NCBI GenBank assembly: GCA_021827205.1
Contig: JAKAWV010000001.1
Span: 248,001-312,000 of the forward strand
Reading direction: 5' to 3'
Source of the DNA: Pseudomonadota bacterium
Lineage (GTDB): Bacteria > Pseudomonadota > Gammaproteobacteria > Xanthomonadales > Rhodanobacteraceae
Length of the DNA: 64,000 nucleotides
Below the pieces are notes generated by a model. The model saw only the letters and a list, made by a program, of their open reading frames with translations, made no database searches and was not told the DNA's origin. Position numbers and translations under genes: made by a program. Positions 44,844 through 58,431 of this stretch are shown here, piece after piece (the stretch's first letter is position 1; the number at the start of each line of letters is the position of its first letter).

Positions 44844-45195
44844 CGGCCCGGCACCGGACGCAAGGCGGCTGGCTTCTAACGCCGCAAAGTACAGACGTTC
44901 AAACGCGCCGTGTGACCGCACGAGTGCGGGCCTGCATCCGGCACTGCCGCGAGTCCGGCAACGGTTACATGACGCATTGCGACATTTTTGTTAAAAATCC
45001 TCGGCCAATTTTCCAGCTCGAATCGAGCTTGAATATAGCTCTACGCAAGTCTTTGTTAAGAAAGATATTTTATTGCACCGCAGCACAAAATAAGGCCTTT
45101 GCAAAGCATTCTGGAAACGTTTACATTCCACGCCGAATCGTTACTTTCCGGTAAATCGGTAAGTGCTTTCCAATACATCGGTAAGGTGGTGCGGC
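44844..45195. promoter_or_regulatory. AT-rich regulatory region upstream of the LacI gene
   Basis: This 352-base gap is unusually AT-rich for the window and holds no gene. TGGAAACGTTTACA at 45112-45125 is a near-palindrome centred on AACGTT, the classic LacI/GalR-family operator form. AGCTCGAATCGAGCT at 45015-45029 is a perfect 15-base palindrome. TCGGTAAG occurs at 45156 and 45178 just before the start codon. The regulator probably controls itself and the + strand sugar locus from here. Promoter hexamers cannot be assigned with confidence. Confidence 0.6.
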
Positions 45196-46305
45196 GTGGC
45201 AATCACGATCAGAGACGTGGCGCGAGAAGCCGAGGTTTCGGTGGCCACCGTGTCGCGCGCGCTCAACGGCCGCGACAATGTCGCCGCCGAGGTGCGCGCG
45301 CACGTGCAAGCGGTCGCCACGCGCCTACGTTATGTGCCGCACAGCGCGGCGCGCAGCCTGATCACGCGGCGCACGCAAACCATCGGTGCGCTGCTGCCGG
45401 ACATGCATGGTGAATTTTTTTCCGAGTTGATCCGCGGCATCGACAAGGCCGCGCGCGCGCAGGGCTATCACCTGCTGCTGTCCAGCTCGCACGGCGATGC
45501 CGATGAAACCGCCGCCGCGCTGCAGGCCATGCTGGGTCGTGTGGATGGTCTGCTGATCATGTCGCCGCATGCCGATCCGGGTTTCATCGAGCAGCACTTG
45601 CCCGAGGACTTGCCCGCGATCCTGCTCAACCCCGTGCGCGGGCACACGCGCCTGTCGGCGCTGGCGGTGGACAACCGCGCTGGCGCCTATGCCATGACCC
45701 AGCATCTGGTGCATCGCGGATATCGCGAGATCGTCCTCATCACCGGGCCCAAGGGCAACCTTGATTCCGAGGAGCGTCTGCAGGGCTGCCTCGACGCGCT
45801 GCACGATCTGCTGCCGGAGGCCGTGCCGCAGATCGTCTCCGGCGATTTCAGCGAGGAATCCGGCTATCGCGCCGGCAGCCTGATCGCCAGGCAAAGCGCG
45901 CGCCCGCAGGCGATTTTCGCGGCCAATGATTCCATGGCCATCGGCTGCCTGTTCGCACTCACCGAGGCCGGGCTGCGCGTGCCCGATGACATCGCGCTGG
46001 CCGGCTTCGACGACATTCCCACCGCGCGCTTCACGCAGCCGCCGCTGACCACGGTGCGCGTGCGCATCGCCGATCTCGGCGGGCGTGCGCTCGATCAATT
46101 GCTTGCGGCCATCGCCAACGGCGGCTCGGCGCAACAGCACAGCGTGCAGATGTTGGCGCCCGAGCTGGTGCTGCGCGCGTCCTGCGGCATGCACAGCCAC
46201 GCTGCCGCAGCGCCGACGCACAACCCGGACACCGTTTCCAAGAAGCGCGCGCAGGCCGGGCCTGACGCACGCCGCACGCCGCACCCTGCACCCAAGCACC
46301 GTTAG
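45196..46305 (+). CDS. LacI-family transcriptional regulator of the carbohydrate locus
   Basis: 369 residues from a GTG preceded by AAGGTGG. The N-terminal helix-turn-helix ITIRDVAREAEVSVATVSRA and the hinge helix (YVPHSAARSL) are typical. The core is a periplasmic-binding-protein fold (about 60-335) with AIFAANDSMAIGCLFAL and GFDDIPTARF as family landmarks. An odd low-complexity tail of about 30 residues (from HSHAAAAPTHNPD) extends past the usual end. It should bind a sugar or glucan fragment and release operator DNA. It heads the locus TonB receptor, halogenase-like protein, glucanase, ABC transporter. Confidence 0.93.
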   Translation: MAITIRDVAREAEVSVATVSRALNGRDNVAAEVRAHVQAVATRLRYVPHSAARSLITRRTQTIGALLPDMHGEFFSELIRGIDKAARAQGYHLLLSSSHGDADETAAALQAMLGRVDGLLIMSPHADPGFIEQHLPEDLPAILLNPVRGHTRLSALAVDNRAGAYAMTQHLVHRGYREIVLITGPKGNLDSEERLQGCLDALHDLLPEAVPQIVSGDFSEESGYRAGSLIARQSARPQAIFAANDSMAIGCLFALTEAGLRVPDDIALAGFDDIPTARFTQPPLTTVRVRIADLGGRALDQLLAAIANGGSAQQHSVQMLAPELVLRASCGMHSHAAAAPTHNPDTVSKKRAQAGPDARRTPHPAPKHR

Positions 46306-46401: not shown

Positions 46402-49400
46402 ATGAAAACGCCTCAGAGCTTCAAAAAGAAACTGCTTGCCAGCCTGATCACCACCTCGCTGGTCGGCGTCACGGCCACGCTGCCAGTCACCGCGCTGGCC
46501 GCCAGCGCCGACGCCACCCTGCGCGGCAACACCGCGCCCCACGCCCAAGTCGTCATCCGTGAGATCGCCACCGGACTCACGCGCAAGACCGAGTCCAACG
46601 GTCATGGCGTGTACGTGCTGCTCGGCCTGCCGCCCGGCACCTACACGGTGCATGCCGGCCACGGGCCCGAACAGAAGGTGAAGCTCAATGTGGCCTCGAC
46701 CGTCACCCTGAATCTGCAGACAGCCAGCGAGAGCAAAGCCACCGAGCTGGCCGCGGTCAAGGTGTCCGCCCAAACCATCAACATCCAGGACATGAGCACC
46801 TCGCAGGTCGGCAGCTACGTGTCGCTGCACCAGATCCAGAACATGCCCGCCGCTTCGCGCAACTTCCTGCAGTTTGCCGACACCGTGCCGGGCATGGTGT
46901 TCAGCCGCAGCGCCAACGGCGACACCAGTCTGCAGGCCGGTGGTATGGCCGACAGCGCCATCAACGTCTATATCGACGGCGTCAGCCAGAAGAACATGGT
47001 CCTGCAGGGCGGCATCGTCGGCCAGAACGCCAGCCAGGGCAATCCGTTCCCGCAACTGGCGATCGGCGAATACCGCGTGATCACCAACAACGAGGAAGCC
47101 GAGTACGGCATGCTTTCCAGTGCCGCCATCGTGGCATCCACCAAATCCGGCACCAACAAATTCAAGGGTAATGTCTTCTACAGTTTCAACAGCACGGGCA
47201 TGCGCGCCGCCACGCCGGCCGAGAACGCGGCCGGCAAGAAGACGCCTTCGACCGACAAGGACTTCGGCTTCGACTTCGGCGGTCCGATCATCAAGAACAA
47301 GGCGCACTTCTTCATTGCCTACGAAGGCAAGAAGTTCAACACCCCGACCACGGTGGTACCCTTCGCGCCGCAGGTCTACGTGAACCAGTTGCCGGCCAGC
47401 GCCCTGTCGCAAGTCGGCCCGGCCAACCTGCCGTTCCTCGAGAACAACTGGTTCGCCAAGATCGACTACGAGCCGACCGATCGCGACCGCTTCGTGCTGG
47501 AAACCCACATCCGCAACGAGACCAGCATCAGCGGTGTCGGCGGCATCCTCACCCCCTCGGCGGGTCTCAATACCATCAACTTCCAGAAGACCGCCGACCT
47601 GGCCTGGGAGCACAACGGCTACGACTGGTTCAACCGCCTCGAGGCCACCTGGCAGGACGCGGCCTATCAGCCGACGCCGATCATGCTCGGCATCGGCAAT
47701 GCCTATACGGCCGCGATCAACAGCAACTACCCGCTCAACCCCAACCAGATCATCCTGCAGACCGGCAATTCGCCGCTGGCGCAGCAGTACAAGGGCCAGC
47801 GCGGTATCGGCATCTTCGACCACTTCACCTATGACGGGCTGCAGTGGCACGGCAGCCACGTGATCAAGGCGGGCTTCAACCTGCAGCGGGTCACGCTCAC
47901 CGCGCAGGACGCCGGCGACAGCAATGCGCTGTTCTATTACAAGGTCTCGCCGACCACGGGTACCGAGAGCATTCCCTATCAGGCGCAGTTCGGCGCCCCG
48001 GTGCCCGGCCTCAGCCCGGTATCGGTGAGCAACAACACCCTGTTCGATGCGTTCCTGCAGGATACCTGGACGTTCAACAAGCACTGGACTTTCAACGTCG
48101 GCGTACGCGCTGACTACGACCGCACCCCGGCGTACCTCAACTACGTGACTCCTGCGCCGGTGCTGGCAGCGCTCAACACCCAGGCTCCAGGTGCGGCAAC
48201 TGGGATTACGTATGCGCAGCAGCTGGCCCAGGGCGGCATCAATATCAACAACTACGTCAGCAACGGCAGCAACCGCAGTGCCAAGTTGCATTTCTCGCCG
48301 CGCTTGGGCTTTGCCTACGACATCGACGGCGACCAGAAGCACGTGATCTTCGGCGGCATCGGCCGCACCTACAACCACAACCTGTACGACCTGCTGCAGG
48401 TCGAGCAGACCAAGTACGTGCTGTCGCAGCCGACGGTCTACTTCGGTACGGCGTCGCAGCCGTGCCTGTCCGGCCAGACCCCCTGTTACGCCTGGAATCC
48501 GTCGTATCTGAGCATTCCGGCGTTGCAGGCGCTGGTGGCGGGATCATTCGCCGGCAAGGAGGTGGACATGATGCCCAACAACCTCAAGACACCGTATTCC
48601 GACCAGTTTTCCATCGGCATGCGCAACCAGATCGGCGAGTGGAATACCAGTGTCGCGGTCACGCGCGTACTCAGCTACGACGGCCTGACTGGCTTCCTGG
48701 GCAACCGCGCACCCGGTGGCGCCTTCTGGGTGCACGAACCATGGGGTGGTGTTGGCCAGCCATGGACCTATCCCTTGCCGGGCTTTGGCAACCTGATCCT
48801 CTGGGGCAACAGTTTGCGGACCAGCACCACGCAGTTGTTGCTGTCGGCGCAGAAGCCCTACACCGAGGAGTCCGGTTGGGGCATGACCGTGGCCTACACT
48901 TATACCCACGCCAGATGGAACATGGATAACCAGGCGCTCAACAACAACTACTCCTTCGACGCGGAGTACCCCTACCAGTATCCGTTCATCGGCGAGCCGG
49001 TGGCCAAATCACGCATCGTGATCGCCGGTACCCTGAAAGGGCCGTGGGATATTGCCATGGGTGCGCGGCTGACGCTGGCCACGCCGATCCCTGGCGTCAA
49101 TCTGGCTTGCTACGGCGATCTCAATTCGCCCAGCGGTTGTATTCCGGTGGCGGCCACGCCGCAAGGCTCGCAGTTCCTCGTCGGCGGCCGCATCTGGGGC
49201 TACCGCGACTTCTCGGTGCAGTTCACCAAGAACTTCAAGCTGTGGGGCCTCAACGCCTATGCGCGCGCTGACATCATCAATCTGTTCAACTGGCACAACT
49301 ACTCGAGCTACATCGAGAATTACGGCAGCAACGGGGTGCTCAACAAATACCCGGTCCAGTACAACCCGCTGGGTGAGATCTCGGGTTACCCACGTTATGT

Positions 49401-49428
49401 GAAGCTCACCGTGGGCGTGCAGTTCTGA
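46402..49428 (+). CDS. TonB-dependent outer-membrane receptor, Oar/carboxypeptidase-regulatory-like type
   Basis: 1008 residues with a signal peptide (SLVGVTATLPVTALAASA, cleavage near 33-34). A CarboxypepD-regulatory-like domain (about 36-105; GNTAPHAQVVIREIATGLTR) precedes the plug (about 120-260; QIQNMPAASRNFLQFADTVPG) and a long beta-barrel ending in an aromatic residue (TVGVQF). A standard TonB box is not obvious. GTAGGGG precedes the ATG. In Xanthomonadales and Caulobacter such receptors import oligosaccharides and sit beside LacI regulators and flavin halogenase-like genes. A glucan-derived substrate is inferred here from the GH144-like gene downstream. A strong hairpin follows the stop. 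Confidence 0.93.
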   Translation: MKTPQSFKKKLLASLITTSLVGVTATLPVTALAASADATLRGNTAPHAQVVIREIATGLTRKTESNGHGVYVLLGLPPGTYTVHAGHGPEQKVKLNVASTVTLNLQTASESKATELAAVKVSAQTINIQDMSTSQVGSYVSLHQIQNMPAASRNFLQFADTVPGMVFSRSANGDTSLQAGGMADSAINVYIDGVSQKNMVLQGGIVGQNASQGNPFPQLAIGEYRVITNNEEAEYGMLSSAAIVASTKSGTNKFKGNVFYSFNSTGMRAATPAENAAGKKTPSTDKDFGFDFGGPIIKNKAHFFIAYEGKKFNTPTTVVPFAPQVYVNQLPASALSQVGPANLPFLENNWFAKIDYEPTDRDRFVLETHIRNETSISGVGGILTPSAGLNTINFQKTADLAWEHNGYDWFNRLEATWQDAAYQPTPIMLGIGNAYTAAINSNYPLNPNQIILQTGNSPLAQQYKGQRGIGIFDHFTYDGLQWHGSHVIKAGFNLQRVTLTAQDAGDSNALFYYKVSPTTGTESIPYQAQFGAPVPGLSPVSVSNNTLFDAFLQDTWTFNKHWTFNVGVRADYDRTPAYLNYVTPAPVLAALNTQAPGAATGITYAQQLAQGGININNYVSNGSNRSAKLHFSPRLGFAYDIDGDQKHVIFGGIGRTYNHNLYDLLQVEQTKYVLSQPTVYFGTASQPCLSGQTPCYAWNPSYLSIPALQALVAGSFAGKEVDMMPNNLKTPYSDQFSIGMRNQIGEWNTSVAVTRVLSYDGLTGFLGNRAPGGAFWVHEPWGGVGQPWTYPLPGFGNLILWGNSLRTSTTQLLLSAQKPYTEESGWGMTVAYTYTHARWNMDNQALNNNYSFDAEYPYQYPFIGEPVAKSRIVIAGTLKGPWDIAMGARLTLATPIPGVNLACYGDLNSPSGCIPVAATPQGSQFLVGGRIWGYRDFSVQFTKNFKLWGLNAYARADIINLFNWHNYSSYIENYGSNGVLNKYPVQYNPLGEISGYPRYVKLTVGVQF

Positions 49429-49544: not shown

Positions 49545-51059
49545 ATGCCCATGTCACAGTCCGTGAAAAACATCGTCATCGTCGGCGGCGGCACCGCCGG
49601 CTGGATGGCGGCGGCGGCCTGCGCCAAGGTGCTGGGGCCGAGCTATGCGGTGCACCTGGTCGAGTCCGAGGAGATCGGCACCATCGCCGTGGGCGAGGCC
49701 ACGGTGCCGCACCTGAAGCAGTTCAACAATCTGCTCGAGATCGACGAGGTCGAGTTCGTCAAGAACGTCAAGGGTACGTTCAAACTGGGCATCCAGTTCA
49801 ACGACTGGGGTCGCCTGGGTGACAGTTACATCCACGGTTTCGGCCAGTTGGGCCCCGATGTCGGCCCACTGCCGTTCCACCAGTTCTGGATCAAGGCGCG
49901 GCACAAAGGCTGGGCCGCGCCGCTGGGCGATTACTCGATCAACACGGCGGCGGCGCCACGCGGCAAGTTCATGCCCTCGGCCAGCGACGCGCCGGCCAAT
50001 TCCCCGCTGGCGGATATCCGCTACGCCTATCACTTTGACGCCAGCCTGTATGCGCGCTACCTGCGCGGCTATGCCGAAGCGCGTGGCGCGCGCCGCACCG
50101 AGGGCAAGGTCAGGCACGTGCAGCTGCGCGCCGAGGACGGTTACGTCGAGTCGGTGACGCTGGAGAACGGCACCGTCATCGGCGGGGATCTGTTCATCGA
50201 CTGCTCCGGCTTCCGCGGCCTGCTGATCGAGCAGGCGCTGCACATCGGCTACATCGATTATTCGCAGTGGTTGCGTTGCGACCGCGCCGTGGCGGTCGGT
50301 TGCGAGAAAGTCGGCCCGCCCACGCCCTACACGCGGGTGACCGCGCGCACGGCCGGCTGGCAGTGGCGCATCCCGCTGCAGCATCGCACCGGCAACGGGC
50401 ACGTTTACAGCAGCGCCCTGATCAGTGACGACGAGGCCGCGGCCACGCTGTTGGCCAACCTGGATGGCAAGCCGCTGGGCGAGCCGCGCTTGCTGCGCTT
50501 CACGCCCGGCATGCGCAAGAAGTTCTGGAGCAAGAACGTGGTGGCGCTGGGGCTGGCCAGCGGCTTTCTGGAGCCGCTGGAGTCGACCAGCATCTTCCTG
50601 ATCCAGTCGGGCATCGCGCGCCTGGTCAGCCTGCTGCCGTGGAATGATTTCAGCGAGGTGGTGATCGACGAGTACAACGCCCAGCTCACTTTCGAGATGG
50701 AGCGCATCCGCGACTTCCTGATCCTGCATTACCACGCCACGCAGCGCGATGACGCGCCGTTGTGGCGCGAGTGCGCCCGCATGTCGGTGCCCGCGGGTCT
50801 GGCGCACAAGATGCGCCTGTTCGCCGATAGCGGGCGGTCCTTCCGCGAGAGCGAGGAACTCTTCGCGGAACCCAGCTGGGTGGAGGTGATGATCGGGCAG
50901 AACATCCTGCCGCGCGCCTACCACCCGCTGGTCGAGCAGATGCCCGATGACCAGCTCAAGCAGTTCGTGCAGGGCGTGGCGCAGGTGATCGAAAGCTGCG
51001 TCGGCGTGATGCCGCCGCATCAGACCTTCATCGACCGACGTTGCGCGGCGCCAGCCTGA
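49545..51059 (+). CDS. Flavin-dependent tryptophan-halogenase-family protein
   Basis: 504 residues, the usual size. The FAD-binding VIVGGGTAGWMAAA opens the protein. The motif WxWxIP is present (GWQWRIP, first Trp 272). The catalytic lysine of PrnA-type enzymes has a counterpart at K80 (GTFKLGIQF) and the active-site glutamate at E346 (FLEPLESTSIF). All signature residues for making HOCl or HOBr-like species are therefore intact. Yet it sits between a TonB receptor and a glucanase, where Xanthomonadales and Caulobacter often carry such genes. No halogenated metabolite pathway is visible and no flavin reductase is adjacent. The natural substrate is unknown; a sugar-locus-linked oxidation or bromination is possible. 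The start is the ATG at 49545; an upstream ORF start at 49488 is rejected because the family begins here. Confidence 0.9.
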   Translation: MPMSQSVKNIVIVGGGTAGWMAAAACAKVLGPSYAVHLVESEEIGTIAVGEATVPHLKQFNNLLEIDEVEFVKNVKGTFKLGIQFNDWGRLGDSYIHGFGQLGPDVGPLPFHQFWIKARHKGWAAPLGDYSINTAAAPRGKFMPSASDAPANSPLADIRYAYHFDASLYARYLRGYAEARGARRTEGKVRHVQLRAEDGYVESVTLENGTVIGGDLFIDCSGFRGLLIEQALHIGYIDYSQWLRCDRAVAVGCEKVGPPTPYTRVTARTAGWQWRIPLQHRTGNGHVYSSALISDDEAAATLLANLDGKPLGEPRLLRFTPGMRKKFWSKNVVALGLASGFLEPLESTSIFLIQSGIARLVSLLPWNDFSEVVIDEYNAQLTFEMERIRDFLILHYHATQRDDAPLWRECARMSVPAGLAHKMRLFADSGRSFRESEELFAEPSWVEVMIGQNILPRAYHPLVEQMPDDQLKQFVQGVAQVIESCVGVMPPHQTFIDRRCAAPA

Positions 51060-51225: not shown

Positions 51226-52695
51226 ATGTTGAAACGAAGTGCCATTCTGTGCGCGGCGCTGCTGGCCACGCTGCCCGGTGCGCTGCTGGCGGCGCCGATC
51301 ACGACGGCCCCCCAGCGCGCGCCGTTCGTGTCGACGCTGCCGGTGGAGCACACGCTGCCGCCATTTTTCGATCAGCTCGAAAAGCGCACCTTCGAATTTT
51401 TCTGGGATACCACCAATCCGGCCAATGGCCTGGCGCCCGATCACTATCCGGGGCCGTCGTTTTCCAGCATCGCGGCGGTGGGATTCGCGCTCACCGCCTA
51501 CCCGATCGGCGTGGAGCGCGGCTGGGTCACGCGCCAGCAGGCGGCGCAGCGCGTGCTGACCACGCTGAAGTTTTTCGATGACGCGCCGCAGGGCAAGGCC
51601 GCGGCCGGCGACACCGGTTACAAGGGTTTCTACTATCACTTCCTGGACATGCGCACGGGCCGGCGCTGGCCGCACATCGAGCTGTCCAGCATCGACACCG
51701 CGCTGCTGATGGCCGGTGTGTTGTTCGACCAGAGCTATTTCGATCGCGGCACGCCCATCGAAAAACAGATCCGCAGCCTCGCCAACCAGCTCTACCGGCG
51801 CGTGGACTGGACCTGGATGCAGGCCGATCCGCCGCTGATCAGCATGGGCTGGACTCCGCAGTCCGGTTTCCTCAAGTACAACTACGAGGGTTATGACGAG
51901 GCGATGATTCTTTACATCGAAGCCTTGGGCTCACCGACCCACGCGGTGCAACCCGATGCATGGAATGCATGGACGGCCACGTATCCGAAATTCTGGGGTG
52001 ACTACTACGGTCGCGAGCAGCTCAGTTTCGCGCCGTTGTTCGGCTCGCAGTATTCGGAGTCGTGGATCGATTTTCGCGGCATCCAGGATGCCTTCATGCG
52101 CGGCAAGGGCATCGACTATTTCATCAACAGCCGCCGCGAGGCCGAATCGCAGCGCGATTACGCCATCGCCAATCCCGGCCACTGGACCGGCTACGGCAAG
52201 GATCTGTGGGGCCTCACCGCCTGCGACGGTCCGGGCAACATCACCTACACCGATGCCCAGGGTGTGACGCGCACGTTCGCGGGCTATGCCGCGCGCGGCG
52301 CCGGCATCAAGCACACCTTCGACGATGGCACCATCGCGCCGACCGCGGCGCTGGGCTCGATCGCGTTCGCGCCCAGGATCGTCATCCCGATGGTGGAAGC
52401 GATGCAGGCCAAGTACGGCAAGTACATTTATGGCCGCTACGGCTATGTCGACGCCTTCAACCCCAGCTTCCACGATAGCAACGCGGTGGTGAACAGCGGA
52501 ACCGTGGTGCCGGGCGTGGGCTGGGTGGACTCCGAGCGCCTCGGCATCGATCAAGGCCCGATCCTGCTGATGCTGGAAAACTACCGCTCCGGTTTCGTCT
52601 GGCGCGTGATGCGCAAGAACCCGTATATCCGCCGCGGCCTGCAGCGCGCCGGTTTCAGCGGCGGCTGGCTGGACGGCAAACCCGCGACGGAGTGA
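51226..52695 (+). CDS. Exported GH144-like beta-1,2-glucanase (glucoamylase-family fold)
   Basis: 489 residues from ATG 51226. A signal peptide (LCAALLATLPGALLAA) is followed by PPFFDQLEKRTFEFFWDTT, the start signature of the COG5368 'glucoamylase' family. The middle has GYKGFYYHFLDMRTGRRW and EAMILYIEALGSPTH, and the Glycoamylase domain (about 215-470) includes FGSQYSESWIDFRG and ACDGPGNITY. Members of this group (GH144) cut beta-1,2-glucans. It probably works in the periplasm on glucan brought in by the TonB receptor. The C-terminus NPYIRRGLQRAGF is also a family trait. The gene lies 166 bases after the halogenase gene and nine before the binding-protein gene. Which beta-glucan it cuts is inferred from the family. 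Confidence 0.85.
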   Translation: MLKRSAILCAALLATLPGALLAAPITTAPQRAPFVSTLPVEHTLPPFFDQLEKRTFEFFWDTTNPANGLAPDHYPGPSFSSIAAVGFALTAYPIGVERGWVTRQQAAQRVLTTLKFFDDAPQGKAAAGDTGYKGFYYHFLDMRTGRRWPHIELSSIDTALLMAGVLFDQSYFDRGTPIEKQIRSLANQLYRRVDWTWMQADPPLISMGWTPQSGFLKYNYEGYDEAMILYIEALGSPTHAVQPDAWNAWTATYPKFWGDYYGREQLSFAPLFGSQYSESWIDFRGIQDAFMRGKGIDYFINSRREAESQRDYAIANPGHWTGYGKDLWGLTACDGPGNITYTDAQGVTRTFAGYAARGAGIKHTFDDGTIAPTAALGSIAFAPRIVIPMVEAMQAKYGKYIYGRYGYVDAFNPSFHDSNAVVNSGTVVPGVGWVDSERLGIDQGPILLMLENYRSGFVWRVMRKNPYIRRGLQRAGFSGGWLDGKPATE

Positions 52696-52704
52696 ACTGC
52701 GCGC

Positions 52705-54021
52705 ATGTCCGGCATCACTCGCTTGCCGCGCTTGCCGCGCTTGCCGCGCTTGCCGCTGCTGCTGTCGCTGGTGTTCGCGGCGCTGCTCGGCGGCTGCACG
52801 CAGGCGCCCCATGCCCAGCGCGAGGTGCTGCACTTCTGGGCCATGGGCCGGGAAGGCCTGGTCGCCGCGCGGTTGGTGCAGGGCTTCGAGAAATTGCACC
52901 CGGATATCCGTGTCGAGGTGCAGCAACTGCCGTGGACCGCGGCGCACGCCAAGCTGCTGACGGCTTACGCCGGCGACACCACGCCCGATGTCGCGCAAAT
53001 GGGCAACACCTGGATTCCAGAGATGGCCGCGCTGCGCGCCATCGTACCGCTGGACAGCTATATCGCCGGCTCGCACATCGTCACGCCCAGCGATTACTTC
53101 CCCGGCATCTGGACCAGCAACGTCATCCACGGCAAGGCCTACGGCGTGCCGTGGTACGTGGACACGCGTCTGATCTTCTACCGCAAGGACATCCTCGCCG
53201 CCGCGGGCTTTGATCACGCGCCGACCAGTTGGGCCGGCTGGGAGCGCATGCTGGCGGCGATCAAGGCGCGCGCGAAGCCCGGCGACTGGGCCGCGCTGCT
53301 GCCGCTCAACGAGTTCGAGCCGCTGGTGTCGCTGGCGCTGGAACAGCCGGGTTCGTTCCTGCGCGATGGCGATCAGTACGGCAATTTCGAGAGTCCGCAA
53401 TTCGAGGCGGCGCTGCGCTTTTATCTGGGTTTTTTCCGCAACGGCTACGCGCCGCGTCTCGATGACACGCAAATCGCCAGCGTGCCGATCGAATTCGCGC
53501 GCGGGCACTATGCGTTCTACATCTCGGGGCCGTGGATGATCCGCGAGTTCGAGCGCCAGATGCCCGCCGCGGCGTGGGGCGACTGGGCCACCGCGCCGCT
53601 GCCCGGCCCCAGCGGCGCGGCCAGCAATTCGGGCATCGCCGGTGGCGCCAGTCTGGTGATCTTTCGCAACTCCAGGCACAAGGCGGCGGCGTGGAAATTG
53701 ATCGAGTACCTCTCGCGGCCCGCGGTGCAGGATGAGTTCCATCGGCTCACCGGCGATCTGCCGCCGCGGCGCAGTACTTGGGCGCGGCCCGATATCGCGT
53801 CCGATCCCTACGCCGTGGCGTTCCGCACCCAGCTCGAACACGCGCGCGCCGTGCCCAAGATCGCCGAATACGAGCAGATCGTGCAGGAGATGCAAACCAT
53901 CGCCGCGCGCGCCGCGTGGGGCAAACTCAGCGTGGCGCAGGCGGCCGCCGAAATGAATCAGCGCACCAATGCGATCCTGTCCGAGCGGCGCTGGATCCTG
54001 CGGCATGGAGGCTTGCGATGA
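52705..54021 (+). CDS. Sugar ABC transporter substrate-binding lipoprotein (CUT1 type)
   Basis: 438 residues. The N-terminal signal has a 4-fold RLP repeat encoded by 9-base tandem units (52720-52755), then a hydrophobic run ending in LLGGCTQA, a lipobox with Cys near 32. The mature part is a family 1 solute-binding protein (about 40-430), with VLHFWAMGREG, YGVPWYVDTRLIFYRKD and YISGPWMIREFERQ, the usual Trp-rich sugar site. It should bind an oligosaccharide and pass it to the permeases encoded next. The stop overlaps the first permease start (ATGA). RBS GGAGTGA overlaps the previous stop. Confidence 0.92.
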   Translation: MSGITRLPRLPRLPRLPLLLSLVFAALLGGCTQAPHAQREVLHFWAMGREGLVAARLVQGFEKLHPDIRVEVQQLPWTAAHAKLLTAYAGDTTPDVAQMGNTWIPEMAALRAIVPLDSYIAGSHIVTPSDYFPGIWTSNVIHGKAYGVPWYVDTRLIFYRKDILAAAGFDHAPTSWAGWERMLAAIKARAKPGDWAALLPLNEFEPLVSLALEQPGSFLRDGDQYGNFESPQFEAALRFYLGFFRNGYAPRLDDTQIASVPIEFARGHYAFYISGPWMIREFERQMPAAAWGDWATAPLPGPSGAASNSGIAGGASLVIFRNSRHKAAAWKLIEYLSRPAVQDEFHRLTGDLPPRRSTWARPDIASDPYAVAFRTQLEHARAVPKIAEYEQIVQEMQTIAARAAWGKLSVAQAAAEMNQRTNAILSERRWILRHGGLR

Positions 54022-54905
54022 AGCGAGGTGGCGGCGCACTGGTCGGCTGGATGTTCGTGGCGCCGGCGCTGATCGTGATCGGCGTGTTTTTCCTGCTGCC
54101 GGTGCTGGCGGCGCTGGGCCTGAGCTTCACCGATTTCAACATCTACGCGCTGGCCAGCCTGAAGAACCTGCGTTTCGTCGGCATCGACAATTACATCGCC
54201 GTGTTGCGCATGGGCTTGTTCTGGAAGGCGCTTGGCAACACGCTGTATTTCGTCGTGGTCGGCGTGCCGCTGTCGATCGGCGCGGCGCTGGGCGCGGCGC
54301 TGCTGGTGCATTCGCGGCTGGCGCGGTGGAAGAGTTTCTTTCGCGTGGCGCTGTTCACGCCGGTGGTCACCAACCTGATCGCGGTGGCGGTGATCTGGAA
54401 ATATCTTTTCCAGGAGCGCTACGGTTTCGTCAACTACGCGCTGAGCTGGTTCGGCATCCACCCGATCGACTGGCTGGGGAATCCGCACATGTCCATGCCC
54501 ACCATCATCCTGTTCGCGCTGTGGAAGAACTTCGGCTACAGCATGATCATCGTGCTGGCCGGCTTGCAGGCGATCCCGGATGAGTTGTACGAGGCCGCGC
54601 GGCTGGATGGCGCCAGCGCCTGGCGGCAAGTGCGCTACATCACCCTGCCCATGCTCGGACCGACGCTGATGACCGTGGGCCTGCTGACCATGGTCGGTTA
54701 CTTCCAGTTGTTCGCCGAACCGTACGTGATGACCCAGGGCGGCCCGCTGCAGAGCACGCTGTCGGTGCTGTATCTGCTGTACGAGCAGGGTTTCAACTGG
54801 TGGAACCTCGGCTTTGCCTCGGCCATCGCCTTCGTGCTGTTCGTGTTCACCATGATCGCCACCTGGGCGCTGATGCGCTTCGGGCGGCGCAAGGGTTGGG
54901 TCTAG
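54018..54905 (+). CDS. Sugar ABC transporter permease 1 (MalF/UgpA-like)
   Basis: 295 residues with six membrane helices. The EAA loop reads EAARLDGASAWRQVRYITLP at about 191-210, the ATPase-contact motif of binding-protein-dependent permeases. PALIVIGVFFLLPVLAALGL is helix 1, typical of MalF/UgpA partners. It overlaps the binding-protein stop by four bases and ends nine bases before permease 2. Together they form the channel for an oligosaccharide. The operon has no MalK-type ATPase, so the complex must borrow a shared one from elsewhere in the genome (MsmX-like sharing is known in other bacteria). Confidence 0.93.
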   Translation: MKRGGGALVGWMFVAPALIVIGVFFLLPVLAALGLSFTDFNIYALASLKNLRFVGIDNYIAVLRMGLFWKALGNTLYFVVVGVPLSIGAALGAALLVHSRLARWKSFFRVALFTPVVTNLIAVAVIWKYLFQERYGFVNYALSWFGIHPIDWLGNPHMSMPTIILFALWKNFGYSMIIVLAGLQAIPDELYEAARLDGASAWRQVRYITLPMLGPTLMTVGLLTMVGYFQLFAEPYVMTQGGPLQSTLSVLYLLYEQGFNWWNLGFASAIAFVLFVFTMIATWALMRFGRRKGWV

Positions 54906-54913
54906 GGTTGGGC

Positions 54914-55738
54914 ATGAAACCGTCACGCACCGCGTTCTGGACCATCAACGGCCTACTCGGGCTGCTGGCTGCGATCACGCTGTTTCCGCTGGCGTGGATG
55001 CTGTCGGTCTCGTTGATGCCGGACGGCGCGGCCAGCACGTTTCCGCCGCCGCTGTGGCCGACGCATCCGACCCTGGCCAATTATCACGCGCTGTTCGTCA
55101 GGGCTGATCTGGGGCGCTACCTGCTCAACAGCCTGATCGTTTCCGGCGGCATCACCCTGGGCTCGCTGTGCTGCAACGTGCTGGCCGGTTATGGCTTCGC
55201 CAAGCTGCGCTTCGGCGGGCGCGATCGCACCTTCGGCCTGCTGCTGGCGGCGCTGGTGATCCCCTCGCAGGTGGCGATGATGCCGCTGTTTCTGCTGGCG
55301 CGCGAGCTGCACATCGTCAACAGCTACGCCGGCGTGATCATGCCTTCGCTGGCCAGCATCTTCGGCATTTATCTGGTGCGTCAGTACGCGCGCGCCATTC
55401 CCGACGAGATGCTCGAAGCCGCGCGCATCGACGGCGCCAGCGAGCTGGGCATCTTCCTGCGCGTGGTGTTGCCGCTGCTGAAACCCATCATCCTCACCCT
55501 GACCATCCTCACCTTTCTCACCGCGTGGAACGATTTCATGTGGCCGCTGATCGTGCTCACCGGCAACAACCACTACACCTTGCCGATCGCGCTGGCGTCG
55601 CTGGCGCGCGAGCACAACCAGGACGTGGAGATGCTGATGGCCGGATCGATGGTCACCGTGGTGCCGGTGCTGGTGTTGTTCCTGCTGCTGCAGCGTTACT
55701 ACATCCAGGGCCTGCTGCTGGGCAGCGTGAAGCGGTGA
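54914..55738 (+). CDS. Sugar ABC transporter permease 2 (MalG/UgpE-like)
   Basis: 274 residues with six membrane helices. The EAA loop is EAARIDGASELGIFLRVVLP at about 172-191. NSLIVSGGITLGSLCCNVLA and FLTAWNDFMWPLIVLTGNN are MalG/UgpE landmarks. It is the last gene of the carbohydrate operon. The end (YYIQGLLLGSVKR) is the usual family finish, so the gene is complete even though the sequence just after it is a patchwork of dead gene pieces (55790-56048). The partner ATPase is not in the window. Confidence 0.93.
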   Translation: MKPSRTAFWTINGLLGLLAAITLFPLAWMLSVSLMPDGAASTFPPPLWPTHPTLANYHALFVRADLGRYLLNSLIVSGGITLGSLCCNVLAGYGFAKLRFGGRDRTFGLLLAALVIPSQVAMMPLFLLARELHIVNSYAGVIMPSLASIFGIYLVRQYARAIPDEMLEAARIDGASELGIFLRVVLPLLKPIILTLTILTFLTAWNDFMWPLIVLTGNNHYTLPIALASLAREHNQDVEMLMAGSMVTVVPVLVLFLLLQRYYIQGLLLGSVKR

Positions 55739-56049: not shown

Positions 56050-56649
56050 TCAGCCTGGGCGCGCGCCCAGCATGCGCTCGACGTAGCGCGCCAGCAGATC
56101 GACCTCCAGATTCACCGCGTCCCCCGCCGCGCGCTGGCCGAAGGTGGTCATGGCCACGGTGTGCGGAATCAGGTTGACGCCGAAGCTGGCGCCGTCCACC
56201 TCGTTGACGGTGAGGCTGACGCCGTCGATGCAGACCGAGCCCTTGCTGGCGATGTAGCGCGCCAGTTCCGCGGGCGCGGCAAAGCGCCAGCGCTGCGAGC
56301 GCGCGTCCTCGCGCACCTCCAGTACATGGCCGACGCCATCGATGTGGCCGGCCACCAGATGCCCGCCGAGTGCGTCGCCCACGCGTAGGGCCTTTTCCAG
56401 GTTCACAACGTCCCCGACGCGCAGCGCGCCCAGCGTGGTGCAGGCCAGTGTCTCGCGCGACACATCGGCCGCGAAGCGGTGCGCGCCCAGCTCGATCGCG
56501 GTCAGGCACGCGCCGCTGACGGCGATGCTGTCACCGCGCGCGACACCGGCCAGATCGAGCGCGCCGCAGTCGATATGCAGGCGCAGGTCGCCGCCGCGCG
56601 GTTCGCTGCGCGCGAGCGTGCCGATGGCCTGGATGATGCCGGTGAACAT
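56050..56649 (-). CDS. ribE: Riboflavin synthase alpha subunit
   Basis: 199 residues with two lumazine-binding repeats. It opens MFTGIIQAIGTL, the diagnostic start. Each repeat has the substrate block: SIAVSGACLTAI with DVSRETLACT in the first, and VCIDGVSLTVNEVDGASFGV with IPHTVAMTTFG in the second. It dismutates two 6,7-dimethyl-8-ribityllumazine molecules to riboflavin, as a trimer. The gene lies 10 bases after ribD on the same strand (named ribE here, ribC in E. coli). The usual next genes, ribBA, ribH and nusB, are not present; scraps of hsdR and a transposase follow instead. Confidence 0.97.
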   Translation of the reverse strand: MFTGIIQAIGTLARSEPRGGDLRLHIDCGALDLAGVARGDSIAVSGACLTAIELGAHRFAADVSRETLACTTLGALRVGDVVNLEKALRVGDALGGHLVAGHIDGVGHVLEVREDARSQRWRFAAPAELARYIASKGSVCIDGVSLTVNEVDGASFGVNLIPHTVAMTTFGQRAAGDAVNLEVDLLARYVERMLGARPG

Positions 56650-56659
56650 GCCAGTCTCC

Positions 56660-57937
56660 TCAGTGGGGGCGCAGCAGCAAGCGCATATCCTCGCCGAGCA
56701 TGCGCTGATCCAGCGTGCGCAGTTGCCAGCGCGCGGCCATGTCGGCGAGCGTGGGCAGATGCAGCAGCGGGCGCGCGCTGTCGCCCAGCAGCACCGGCGC
56801 GATGTACAGCAGCAGTTCGTCGACCAGACCGGCGTGCAGCAGCGCACCGGCCAGCGTGGCGCCGGCTTCCACCTGCACCTCATTGCAGCCGCGCGCGGCG
56901 AGCAGGGCCAGCGCGGCGTGCAAATCGAGTCTGCCGTCGCGCAGCGGCAGCGCCACGCATTCGACGCGCGCGTAAGCGGCATGCGCGGGCGTGGCGTCGG
57001 GCGCGTGCAGGATCAGCGTGGGCGCGGCGCCGTCCAGCAGATGCGCGCCGACGGGCAGGGCATCGAGCCGCGCGTCCAGCAGCACGCGCAGCGGCGGCAC
57101 GAAGGCCGTGGTCGGGCTCCCTTCTTCTTGCGGGGGAAGGGTCGGAGATGAGGGTTCAGTTGATTCGTAGTGCTGCGCAAGAGGCGCGCCCTCACCCCTG
57201 CTCCTCTCCCGGGGGGAGAGGGGATCGTGACGCCGATCATCCTTACCCGGAGGGAGGTGTTCGAGGTTCCCGCCATCCCCGTGCGATGAGCGGGGATCGA
57301 GGCGCACGGTCAGGTGCGGGTCGTCGGCGCGCGCGGTGCCGGCGCCGGTGAGGATGGCCGAGCTGCGCGCGCGCCAGCGCGCCACGTCGCTGCGCGCGGC
57401 TTCTCCGGTGATCCAGAACGAGCGCCCGTCGGCCAGCGCGGTGCGGCCATCCAGACTCATGGCCAGCTTCAGGCGCAACCACGGGCGGCCACGCTCGATG
57501 CGACTGAGGAAACCGCGATTCAACTCGCGCGCGGCGTCCTGCATCAGGCCCACGTCGACCGCGATGCCGGCGCCACGCAGGCGCGCGATGCCGGCGCCGG
57601 CGACCCGCGGAAACGGATCGCCGCACGCGACCACCACGCGCGCCACGCCGGCGGCGATGAGCGCATCGGCGCAGGGCGGCGTGCGTCCGTGGTGCGCGCA
57701 AGGCTCCAGCGTGACGTAGGCGGTCGCGTTGCGTGCCTGTGCGCCGGCCGCGCGCAGCGCATATATCTCGGCGTGCGGTTCGCCGGCGCGCGCATGCCAG
57801 CCGCCGCCAACAATATTGTCGCCGTGCGCGATCACGCAGCCGACGCGCGGATTGGGCTGCGTGGTGTATGCACCGCGCGCGGCCAGCCGCAGCGCTTGCG
57901 CCATGTGCGCGTGATCGCTGGCACTGAAGGTGCTCAT
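56660..57937 (-). CDS. ribD: Bifunctional deaminase/reductase RibD, with in-frame repeat insertion
   Basis: 425 residues against about 370 normally. The deaminase domain has GEPHAEIYAL (His/Glu zinc site) and TLEPCAHHGRTPPCADALI (CxxC-type site). The reductase domain starts RPWLRLKLAMSLDGRTAL, with AILTGAGTARADDPHLTVR, and ends near VQVEAGATLAGALL. Residues about 215-275 between LTVRLDPR and PPLRVLLDAR do not belong. They are encoded by a CCCTCACCCC...GGGGAGAGGGG-type interspersed element read in frame (SPRERSRGEGAPL is its tell-tale). Enzyme activity with this surface insertion is plausible but untested. It starts four bases inside the GNAT gene's end (ATGA). Confidence 0.93.
   Translation of the reverse strand: MSTFSASDHAHMAQALRLAARGAYTTQPNPRVGCVIAHGDNIVGGGWHARAGEPHAEIYALRAAGAQARNATAYVTLEPCAHHGRTPPCADALIAAGVARVVVACGDPFPRVAGAGIARLRGAGIAVDVGLMQDAARELNRGFLSRIERGRPWLRLKLAMSLDGRTALADGRSFWITGEAARSDVARWRARSSAILTGAGTARADDPHLTVRLDPRSSHGDGGNLEHLPPGKDDRRHDPLSPRERSRGEGAPLAQHYESTEPSSPTLPPQEEGSPTTAFVPPLRVLLDARLDALPVGAHLLDGAAPTLILHAPDATPAHAAYARVECVALPLRDGRLDLHAALALLAARGCNEVQVEAGATLAGALLHAGLVDELLLYIAPVLLGDSARPLLHLPTLADMAARWQLRTLDQRMLGEDMRLLLRPH
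57118..57223. repeat. CCCTCACCCC/GGGGAGAGGGG interspersed element inside ribD
   Basis: The core CCTGCTCCTCTCCCGGGGGG continues into AGAGGGG at 57217-57223 and starts with CCCTCACC at 57190. The left part (GGGGGAAGGGTCGGAGATGA near 57132) is its partial complement. Elements with this wording are widespread in high-GC proteobacterial genomes (recalled). Reading it on the - strand keeps the ribD frame open and adds about 60 residues. Confidence 0.65.
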
Positions 57938-58431
57938 GCGCGCGGTTCGGCGGTGCCGGTGTCGATGCGCATGACCACGGCGCGCCACGCCCCGCGCGTG
58001 TAATCGCCGCAGGTATGCCAGCCGCGCGCCGCGTAGTAGCCCGCCAAATCGGCCGCGCAATACAGATACAAGTGCGCCACCCCGAGCGCGCGCGCTTCCT
58101 CCACGCCGCGCCAAATCAGCGCGCTGCCGATGCCTTGCCCGCGTTGCTCGTCGCGTACCACCAGGCCGGCCAGCCATGGCGCCCAGGGGCGCGTGTCCTC
58201 GGGGCTGTTGTCGAGCAGGCTGACGCCGCCCAGCCACGACAACGCCTCGTGGTGCGCGATCAGCGTGGTCGGCAGCGCGCGGTGCCGCTGATGCGTGCGC
58301 AGTCGCGCCAATGCGGTGTTCGTATCCAATCCCGCGATCAGCGGCGCGAACGCTGCGGCTTGCGCCGCCGCCAGTGTCGGCAGCCATTGCGGTACGTCGC
58401 AGGCATAGTCGATGGTGAAGGCCCTGCGCAC
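57934..58431 (-). CDS. GNAT-family acetyltransferase
   Basis: 165 residues starting at GTG 58431, six bases after the nrdR stop. The acetyl-CoA loop VVRDEQRGQGIGSALIWRGV (R/QxxGxG/A) and YLYCAADLAGYYAARGWHTC at the C-terminal side are standard GNAT features. It should transfer an acetyl group to an unknown amine. It is nested between nrdR and ribD with 4-base coupling to ribD, which suggests co-expression rather than a role in riboflavin synthesis. No closer family is evident. Confidence 0.9.
   Translation of the reverse strand: MRRAFTIDYACDVPQWLPTLAAAQAAAFAPLIAGLDTNTALARLRTHQRHRALPTTLIAHHEALSWLGGVSLLDNSPEDTRPWAPWLAGLVVRDEQRGQGIGSALIWRGVEEARALGVAHLYLYCAADLAGYYAARGWHTCGDYTRGAWRAVVMRIDTGTAEPRA

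Follow-up and report, generated by a model that had tools for sequence, protein, structure and literature searches.

We analysed a window of 64,000 nucleotides from a Pseudomonadota bacterium of the Rhodanobacteraceae (assembly GCA_021827205.1, contig JAKAWV010000001.1, positions 248,001 to 312,000 of the forward strand), in which one gene encodes a predicted flavin-dependent halogenase (FDH). A preliminary description of this DNA had proposed an intact halogenase embedded in a glucan-utilisation locus, and our analysis bears this out: judged from sequence, the gene is third in an operon that serves the utilisation of beta-1,2-glucan and is preceded by a LacI-type operator, and it directly follows the gene for a TonB-dependent receptor (TBDT). 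Related halogenases recur beside TBDT genes in loci for different sugars, and it is this pairing that we examine here.

A predicted halogenase in a beta-1,2-glucan operon

The halogenase matched the family profile PF04820 with 644.5 bits (E 1.3e-193; cut-off 21 bits) over residues 9-468, covering positions 1-458 of the 458 in the profile, and thus belongs to this family. The family motifs (GxGxxG, the catalytic lysine and glutamate, and WxWxIP) are all present, with K80, E346 and WQWRIP (residues 272-277) located as previously described in one 504-codon frame, and by inspection the protein has no signal-peptide-like N terminus. In an alignment of 204 full-length relatives, window protein included, a lysine is found at K80 in 197, a glutamate at E346 in 199, and a tryptophan at W272 and W274 in 204 and 198, respectively. 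Since these residues are kept in nearly all relatives, their conservation is not accidental, and the loss of lysine or glutamate in homologues, which the preliminary description had raised as an argument against a working enzyme, was not seen broadly. The seven exceptions comprise one alignment gap (L070) and six loci with several halogenase genes (L091, L103, L105, L107, L108 and L119). In each of these six, one halogenase copy lacks K80, E346 or both; these copies cluster together in the tree and are possibly non-catalytic partner subunits.

The closest solved structures are those of Xcc4156, a brominase of Xanthomonas campestris (6y1w; 52.0% identity), 9luq, and BrvH, a Brevundimonas brominase (6frl; 46.5% identity). 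The loop-2 region of the window protein equals those of Xcc4156 and BrvH in length, and its loop-1 region is 2 residues longer than that of BrvH and 8 longer than that of Xcc4156; in this comparison with the two brominases the long loop expected of a halogenase of free L-tryptophan was not found. Both brominases are described as having short loops at these places, against about 35 residues in region 1 of Th-Hal and 26 in region 2 of RebH (PMC7336383). They are also reported to have an open substrate site, to prefer brominating indole-type substrates and to be inactive on free tryptophan (PMC7336383; PMC5945002). Their native substrates are given in the same two sources as unknown, with larger ones such as peptides suggested, in keeping with the earlier remark that many such genes have no known product. 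We predict that the window gene encodes an intact FDH of this non-tryptophan, open-site BrvH/Xcc4156 group. PrnA, RebH and PyrH, which carry the catalytic lysine and glutamate and belong to natural-product pathways, are members of the same family. They differ in binding free tryptophan with longer substrate loops (PMC7336383).

Alternatively, the enzyme may use its halogenase fold as a flavin monooxygenase (hydroxylase) acting on a protein or another aromatic target. The window protein does weakly match the QhpG equivalog model NF049967, and bromide is scarce in many soils. QhpG itself is an FAD enzyme with halogenase-like features that hydroxylates a tryptophan of a polypeptide (PMC7876137). 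Unlike the QhpG system, the window operon has no recognisable gene for a quinone-cofactor protein. The match of 28.2 bits, however, is far under the cut-off of 240, the catalytic residues of a halogenase are kept in the proportions given above, and the closest characterised enzymes brominate (PMC7336383). A hydroxylase is thus rather improbable.

The neighbours named in the preliminary description, a TBDT, a GH144-like glucanase and a sugar ATP-binding cassette (ABC) transporter, were all confirmed as a TBDT, a PF10091 (GH144) enzyme, and a solute-binding protein (SBP) with two ABC permeases, to which we add a LacI-family repressor (Table 1). The start of lacI at 45163 was chosen because that of the gene caller, 45241, would cut into the helix-turn-helix (HTH) domain. 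In the TBDT, a signal-peptide-like N terminus is followed by CarboxypepD_reg, plug and barrel domains, and no solved structure similar in sequence was found at E up to 0.01. The glucanase, whose inferred start is the first methionine of a frame open from 51166 (gene caller's start 51190), can be assigned to GH144 more sharply than before: its closest solved relative is XCC2207 (8xul; 635 bits), and the endo-beta-1,2-glucanase 5gzh scores 162 bits. XCC2207 is XcSGL, a GH144 enzyme described as hydrolysing beta-1,2-glucans (PMC12102758). Among solved proteins the SBP is closest to 3uor (487 bits), followed by Lin1841 (5ysb; 203 bits). We take Lin1841 to be a binder of β-1,2-gluco-oligosaccharides. 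No ABC ATPase gene was recognised adjoining the SBP and permease genes (52705-55738), and the ATPase of this importer is likely shared and encoded elsewhere. Housekeeping and riboflavin-synthesis genes follow on the opposite strand; riboflavin synthase, a RibD-type enzyme and a GNAT acetyltransferase are convergent to the operon (56050-58431, - strand), and the proximity of riboflavin genes to an operon encoding an FAD enzyme is probably a coincidence.

Table 1 Features of the halogenase operon, in positions of the window.
Feature	Position	Strand	Basis
LacI-type operator TGGAAACGTTTACA, predicted	45112..45125	.	upstream of operon; motif match
LacI-family repressor	45163..46305	+	PF00356 HTH, residues 15-59, and periplasmic-binding-protein domains; start inferred
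TonB-dependent receptor	46402..49428	+	PF25183, PF13620, PF00593, PF07715
Flavin-dependent halogenase, BrvH/Xcc4156 type	49545..51059	+	single open frame, 504 codons and stop
FAD-binding GGGTAG motif, residues 14-19	49584..49601	+	alignment position; codon coordinates from start 49545
K80 codon, catalytic lysine equivalent	49782..49784	+	alignment
WQWRIP motif, residues 272-277	50358..50375	+	alignment
E346 codon	50580..50582	+	alignment
GH144 beta-1,2-glucanase, signal-peptide-like N terminus	51226..52695	+	PF10091, 264.8 bits
Sugar ABC transporter solute-binding protein	52705..54021	+	PF01547, PF13416
ABC transporter permease 1	54051..54905	+	PF00528; start from gene caller
ABC transporter permease 2	54914..55738	+	PF00528; start from gene caller

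With a TBDT, an inner-membrane transporter, a carbohydrate enzyme and a sugar regulator in one place, the operon has the composition of the CUT loci described by Blanvillain et al. 2007 (PMC1790865), differing from them in the halogenase, an extra gene that lies outside the definition; the words "halogenase" and "tryptophan" are absent from the main text of that paper. The gene order LacI-TBDT-FDH-GH144-SBP-permease-permease is complete in 35 of the 167 loci that we annotated, window included.

The operator motif TGNAAACGTTTACA occurs at up to one mismatch in a single place in the window (45112-45125) and in none of 100 shuffles. At up to two mismatches, 38 of the 39 loci with LacI-TBDT-FDH-GH144, window included, have it in the 400 bases that precede lacI; in the one locus without it (L024), lacI lies at a contig edge. 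The background rate was 0.5% in mononucleotide-shuffled stretches and 3.7% in random stretches from the same loci; the motif was picked after the upstream sequences had been seen, and the random stretches can include the operator itself. No shared operator stood out by eye between lacI and the TBDT gene, and a scan for consensus promoters and terminators gave no clear excess over shuffles (1 vs 1.9; 10 vs 8.0). Because of the conserved operator upstream of lacI and the kept gene order, the predicted halogenase is very likely expressed together with the glucan genes.

Recurrent linkage to TonB-dependent receptors

We assessed how general the pairing is in five sets of loci: 56 of the orthologue type, 31 with paralogues from the window's own family, 20 from a group 33-39% identical, and 40 high-scoring and 20 lower-scoring loci from across the phylum. 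One of the last set lacked a called halogenase, leaving 19 in that set and 166 of the 167 loci in all; a single pair shares an identical halogenase, so that 165 of the 166 are distinct. A TBDT gene lies directly upstream of the halogenase, on the same strand, in 111 of the 166 loci (52/56, 19/31, 8/20, 23/40 and 9/19 in the five sets as listed), and nearby, meaning up to 5 genes upstream or 3 downstream on either strand, in 137 (54/56, 21/31, 12/20, 37/40 and 13/19). The fourth set (set D, L090-L129) is the top of a list sorted by bit score; among the loci as a whole, several share a genome and window-gene orthologues are over-represented. Of 205 halogenases counted singly, 168 have a TBDT no more than 4 genes away, 3 more have only SapC or a cupin there, 32 have none of these and 2 lie at a contig edge.

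Because close relatives are over-represented, the 204 full-length genes were also collapsed by identity. At 90% identity, 91 of 179 remained directly behind a same-strand TBDT and 146 had one within 4 genes; at 70%, the numbers were 47 and 89 of 110. The window's genome encodes 15 TBDT barrels (PF00593); a halogenase gene lies immediately downstream of two of these, and the 1.5-kb flanks of the other 13 showed none. Since only two of the 15 are so accompanied, the linkage does not simply follow from an abundance of TBDT genes in the genome. Two further PF04820 genes are present in this genome, one directly behind a TBDT (C23; L005 and L183) and the other on an 8.5-kb contig beside GH13/31-type genes, where no TBDT was called (C5; L004). 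In distance matrices from 33 non-redundant loci, the TBDT agrees best with the FDH (r 0.69) and less with LacI, GH144, SBP and the permeases (r 0.50-0.57); GH144, SBP and permeases form a block of their own (r 0.74-0.93).

The sugar genes in the linked loci differ, being of GH144, GH13/31, GH3, GH1, or GH20 with NagA. The 128 full-length linked TBDTs fall into three separate lineages (47, 12 and 69 members). As the linked loci span different sugars and three receptor lineages, the common partner is the receptor: by gene neighbourhood, the constant companion of the halogenase is a TBDT, not one sugar. The link to carbohydrate sensing put forward in the preliminary description was therefore not borne out, the enzyme recurring behind TBDTs in loci for different sugars. 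A sugar-specific step was likewise rejected, since halogenases of the window type accompany genes for different sugars. A further possibility is action on the imported glycan, or on an aromatic aglycone carried by it, as a catabolic oxidation step. The position of the gene in a glucan operon behind one conserved operator would suit such a role, but the same enzyme type stands beside GH13/31, GH20/NagA, amylosucrase, fucosidase and beta-glucan genes, and glucans have no electron-rich aromatic ring. We consider this role very unlikely.

Plasmids with NCBI annotation gave a similar picture. In regions from 10 of 69 records, picked by hand, a TBDT adjoined the halogenase or lay within four genes of it in all nine Gram-negative loci viewed, which carry genes of sucrose, fucose, xylan and galactoside type (GH32/amylosucrase, GH68, GH95, fucosidase, GH43, GH3 or galactosidase). 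A TBDT is absent from the single Streptomyces plasmid locus in this sample; there, adenylation-domain and flavin-reductase genes accompany a PF04820-type gene.

Eight loci (L057-L059, L061-L064 and L066) encode halogenases 53-55% identical to the window protein and have no TBDT nearby; some of these genes adjoin response-regulator and AstE/AspA-like genes.

Companion genes in bacteria and phages

Other genes recur at these loci as well. Within 6 genes of the halogenase, SapC (PF07277) is present in 21 of the 166 loci and Cupin_8 (PF13621) in 16; SapC recurs together with TBDT and halogenase in L065, L069 and several of L095-L149. For one SapC member tested, no solved structure resembled it in sequence at E up to 1, and the solved relatives of one companion cupin include the protein hydroxylases FIH, JMJD5 and JMJD7. 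A PF13759-type oxygenase is not a general bacterial partner, having been found only in L111 (strong, not adjoining the FDH) and L166 (weak).

The two brominases of solved structure appear to belong to the same setting. Orthologues of Xcc4156 (71-90% identical) are arranged as SapC-cupin-FDH in 8 of 8 loci, one of which (L188) has its halogenase gene interrupted by an internal stop; no TBDT is visible there because the 1.5-kb flank examined ends within SapC. Relatives of BrvH (81-97% identical) are arranged as TBDT-FDH-FDH in 3 of 3 loci, from 3 of 149 genomes in the family of G198; a search at E up to 1e-230 of 149 genomes from the family of G082 found none. Given these arrangements, the orphan brominases Xcc4156 and BrvH share one kind of locus. 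The window locus is related in theme to that of Xcc4156 but has neither SapC nor cupin, its FDH directly following the TBDT and preceding GH144; it differs from the loci of BrvH relatives, where the halogenase also lies behind a TBDT, in that those carry tandem FDH genes.

Relatives of PF04820 were also found in 61 phage records, mostly of cyanophages, and K80 and E346 are invariant in 9 phage homologues aligned with the window protein. We viewed the regions around the halogenase in 16 of these records, picked by hand. Within 5 genes of the halogenase, a 2-oxoglutarate (2OG)-Fe(II) or JmjC/cupin oxygenase gene is present in 11 of the 16, a tail-fibre, fibre-assembly or adhesin gene in 8, and one or the other in 12. 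In S-SRM01, a tail-fibre gene stands two genes ahead of the halogenase, and the gene for the gp37-gp38 adhesin tip comes immediately after the halogenase. Three of the phage cupin or JmjC genes were tested and matched JmjC_2 and Cupin_8. Oxygenases of the PF13759 2OG type are found close to the halogenase in two phage loci as well as in a Catenovulum locus with the order TBDT-2OG-FDH-amylosucrase. These phage neighbourhoods are suggestive of a protein target, short of conclusive.

Such contexts bear on the possibility that the substrate is a free metabolite, an indole or a phenol produced or taken up in the presence of the sugar, which is halogenated to yield a signal or antibiotic. BrvH and Xcc4156 do halogenate indole derivatives in vitro (PMC7336383), and the Streptomyces plasmid locus looks like a biosynthetic cluster with its own flavin reductase gene. 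However, no biosynthetic, export, immunity, resistance or flavin-reductase gene was recognised among the proteins of the window operon, TBDT linkage extends over loci for different sugars, and in half of the phage loci viewed the halogenase neighbours fibre or adhesin genes. A small-molecule substrate is thus, on balance, unlikely. Defence against competitors, as suggested in the preliminary description, or an antibiotic role was not retained as the main explanation, as the operon has no recognisable gene for biosynthesis, export or immunity.

Two unannotated "Bacteriophage sp." records from human faecal samples (MT837902.1 and MT835646.1; 6.0 and 23.2 kb) encode halogenases 52-53% identical to the window protein and may be bacterial DNA rather than phage.

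Candidate substrates of the halogenase

Our combined findings lead us to favour, tentatively, a halogenase with an open site whose target is an aromatic residue in a surface protein, the TBDT precursor being the simplest candidate; we regard this role as possible rather than probable. A polypeptide is preferred to a small molecule because the constant partner is a TBDT, in many cases accompanied by SapC and by JmjC-like or 2OG oxygenases. There is precedent in QhpG, which hydroxylates a protein tryptophan (PMC7876137), and in MibH, which is described as chlorinating a peptide tryptophan (PMC5945002). In the sequence of events that we envisage, LacI would leave its operator when a beta-1,2-gluco-oligosaccharide appears. 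The TBDT would carry the oligosaccharide across the outer membrane, GH144 would trim it and the ABC system would import it. A general flavin reductase would supply FADH2 to the cytoplasmic halogenase, which, using bromide or chloride, would halogenate (or oxidise) a co-produced polypeptide at an aromatic side chain; the simplest candidate is the TBDT precursor prior to its export. The modification would tune how stable the surface protein is or how it binds its ligand, and the SapC and FIH/JmjC-like proteins of sister loci may be partner factors or further modifying enzymes. The protein substrate, the halide, the flavin supply and the effect on the receptor are parts of this scheme that we infer.

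A broader version would take in the phages: open-site halogenases, often paired with SapC, FIH/JmjC-like cupins or PF13759 2OG oxygenases, may form widespread protein-modifying systems whose targets are side chains, aromatic and other, on surface proteins that face carbohydrates (TBDTs in bacteria, tail fibres or adhesins in cyanophages). This extension is rather unlikely to hold, but if true it would explain together the missing native substrates of BrvH, Xcc4156 and the phage halogenases.

Several observations weigh against a surface-protein target. Neither TBDT, SapC nor cupin lies within 4 genes of 32 of the 205 halogenases, and 10 of the 31 own-family paralogue loci have no nearby TBDT. 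A single conserved aromatic target common to the linked TBDTs was sought and not found, a weak negative. In the largest lineage, one tyrosine is the only aromatic, histidine or cysteine position shared by 93% or more of the 69 linked members, and it also occurs in all 13 other members of that lineage. Many aromatics are conserved in the other two lineages, where the comparison sequences are few (4 and 3) and too distant to separate a target from the barrel; in the 12-member lineage, 51 aromatic, histidine or cysteine columns are invariant and 30 of them are absent from 3 distant comparison sequences. Some TBDTs counted as unlinked in this search lie a few genes from a halogenase. The FDH distances, compared with no species-tree control, fit one ABC permease (r 0.72) slightly better than the TBDT. 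The companion cupin similar to protein hydroxylases is similar also to C2orf60, a tRNA enzyme. Four of the 16 phage regions (S-H38, S-B64, S-MbCM6 and Sf-CH3) have neither partner, and since 2OG oxygenase genes are numerous in cyanophages (in 14 of 16 in one study; PMC3037559), their proximity to phage halogenases may be partly due to chance. Finally, we met no report of a halogenated TBDT, a point on which no dedicated literature search was made.

The paralogue loci without a TBDT, together with the extra copies that have lost K or E, would also be expected of a passenger gene with no role in the operon. Nonetheless, the place between TBDT and GH144, with lacI upstream, is kept in 39 loci, and the catalytic residues are intact in nearly all relatives, making a passenger extremely unlikely.

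The halogenase family and CUT loci were already known, and the new element is the pairing of halogenase and TBDT, which no paper describes among the matches listed in the openly licensed PMC literature. The nearest idea comes from PMC11337851, which describes rebH/prnA-type transcripts of Colwellia and phages and whose speculations include redox modulation of virus-receptor interactions. The gene neighbourhoods place relatives of BrvH, orthologues of Xcc4156 and most sampled "tryptophan halogenase" genes of TBDT-bearing bacteria in one kind of locus and make a specific substrate class testable by proteomics. If receptors are indeed modified, their halogenation or oxidation would join the ways in which bacteria and phages handle glycans, and would explain such genes where no halogenated product is known. 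Were the protein target to prove wrong, the context would still argue against reading these genes as antibiotic genes.

In three genomes, adjoining pieces of halogenase match were seen (G031:C1:2596882-2598374, G018:C8:14130-15701 and G003:C2:115430-117585), which could reflect a frameshift in the gene, an error in sequencing or fragments in tandem.

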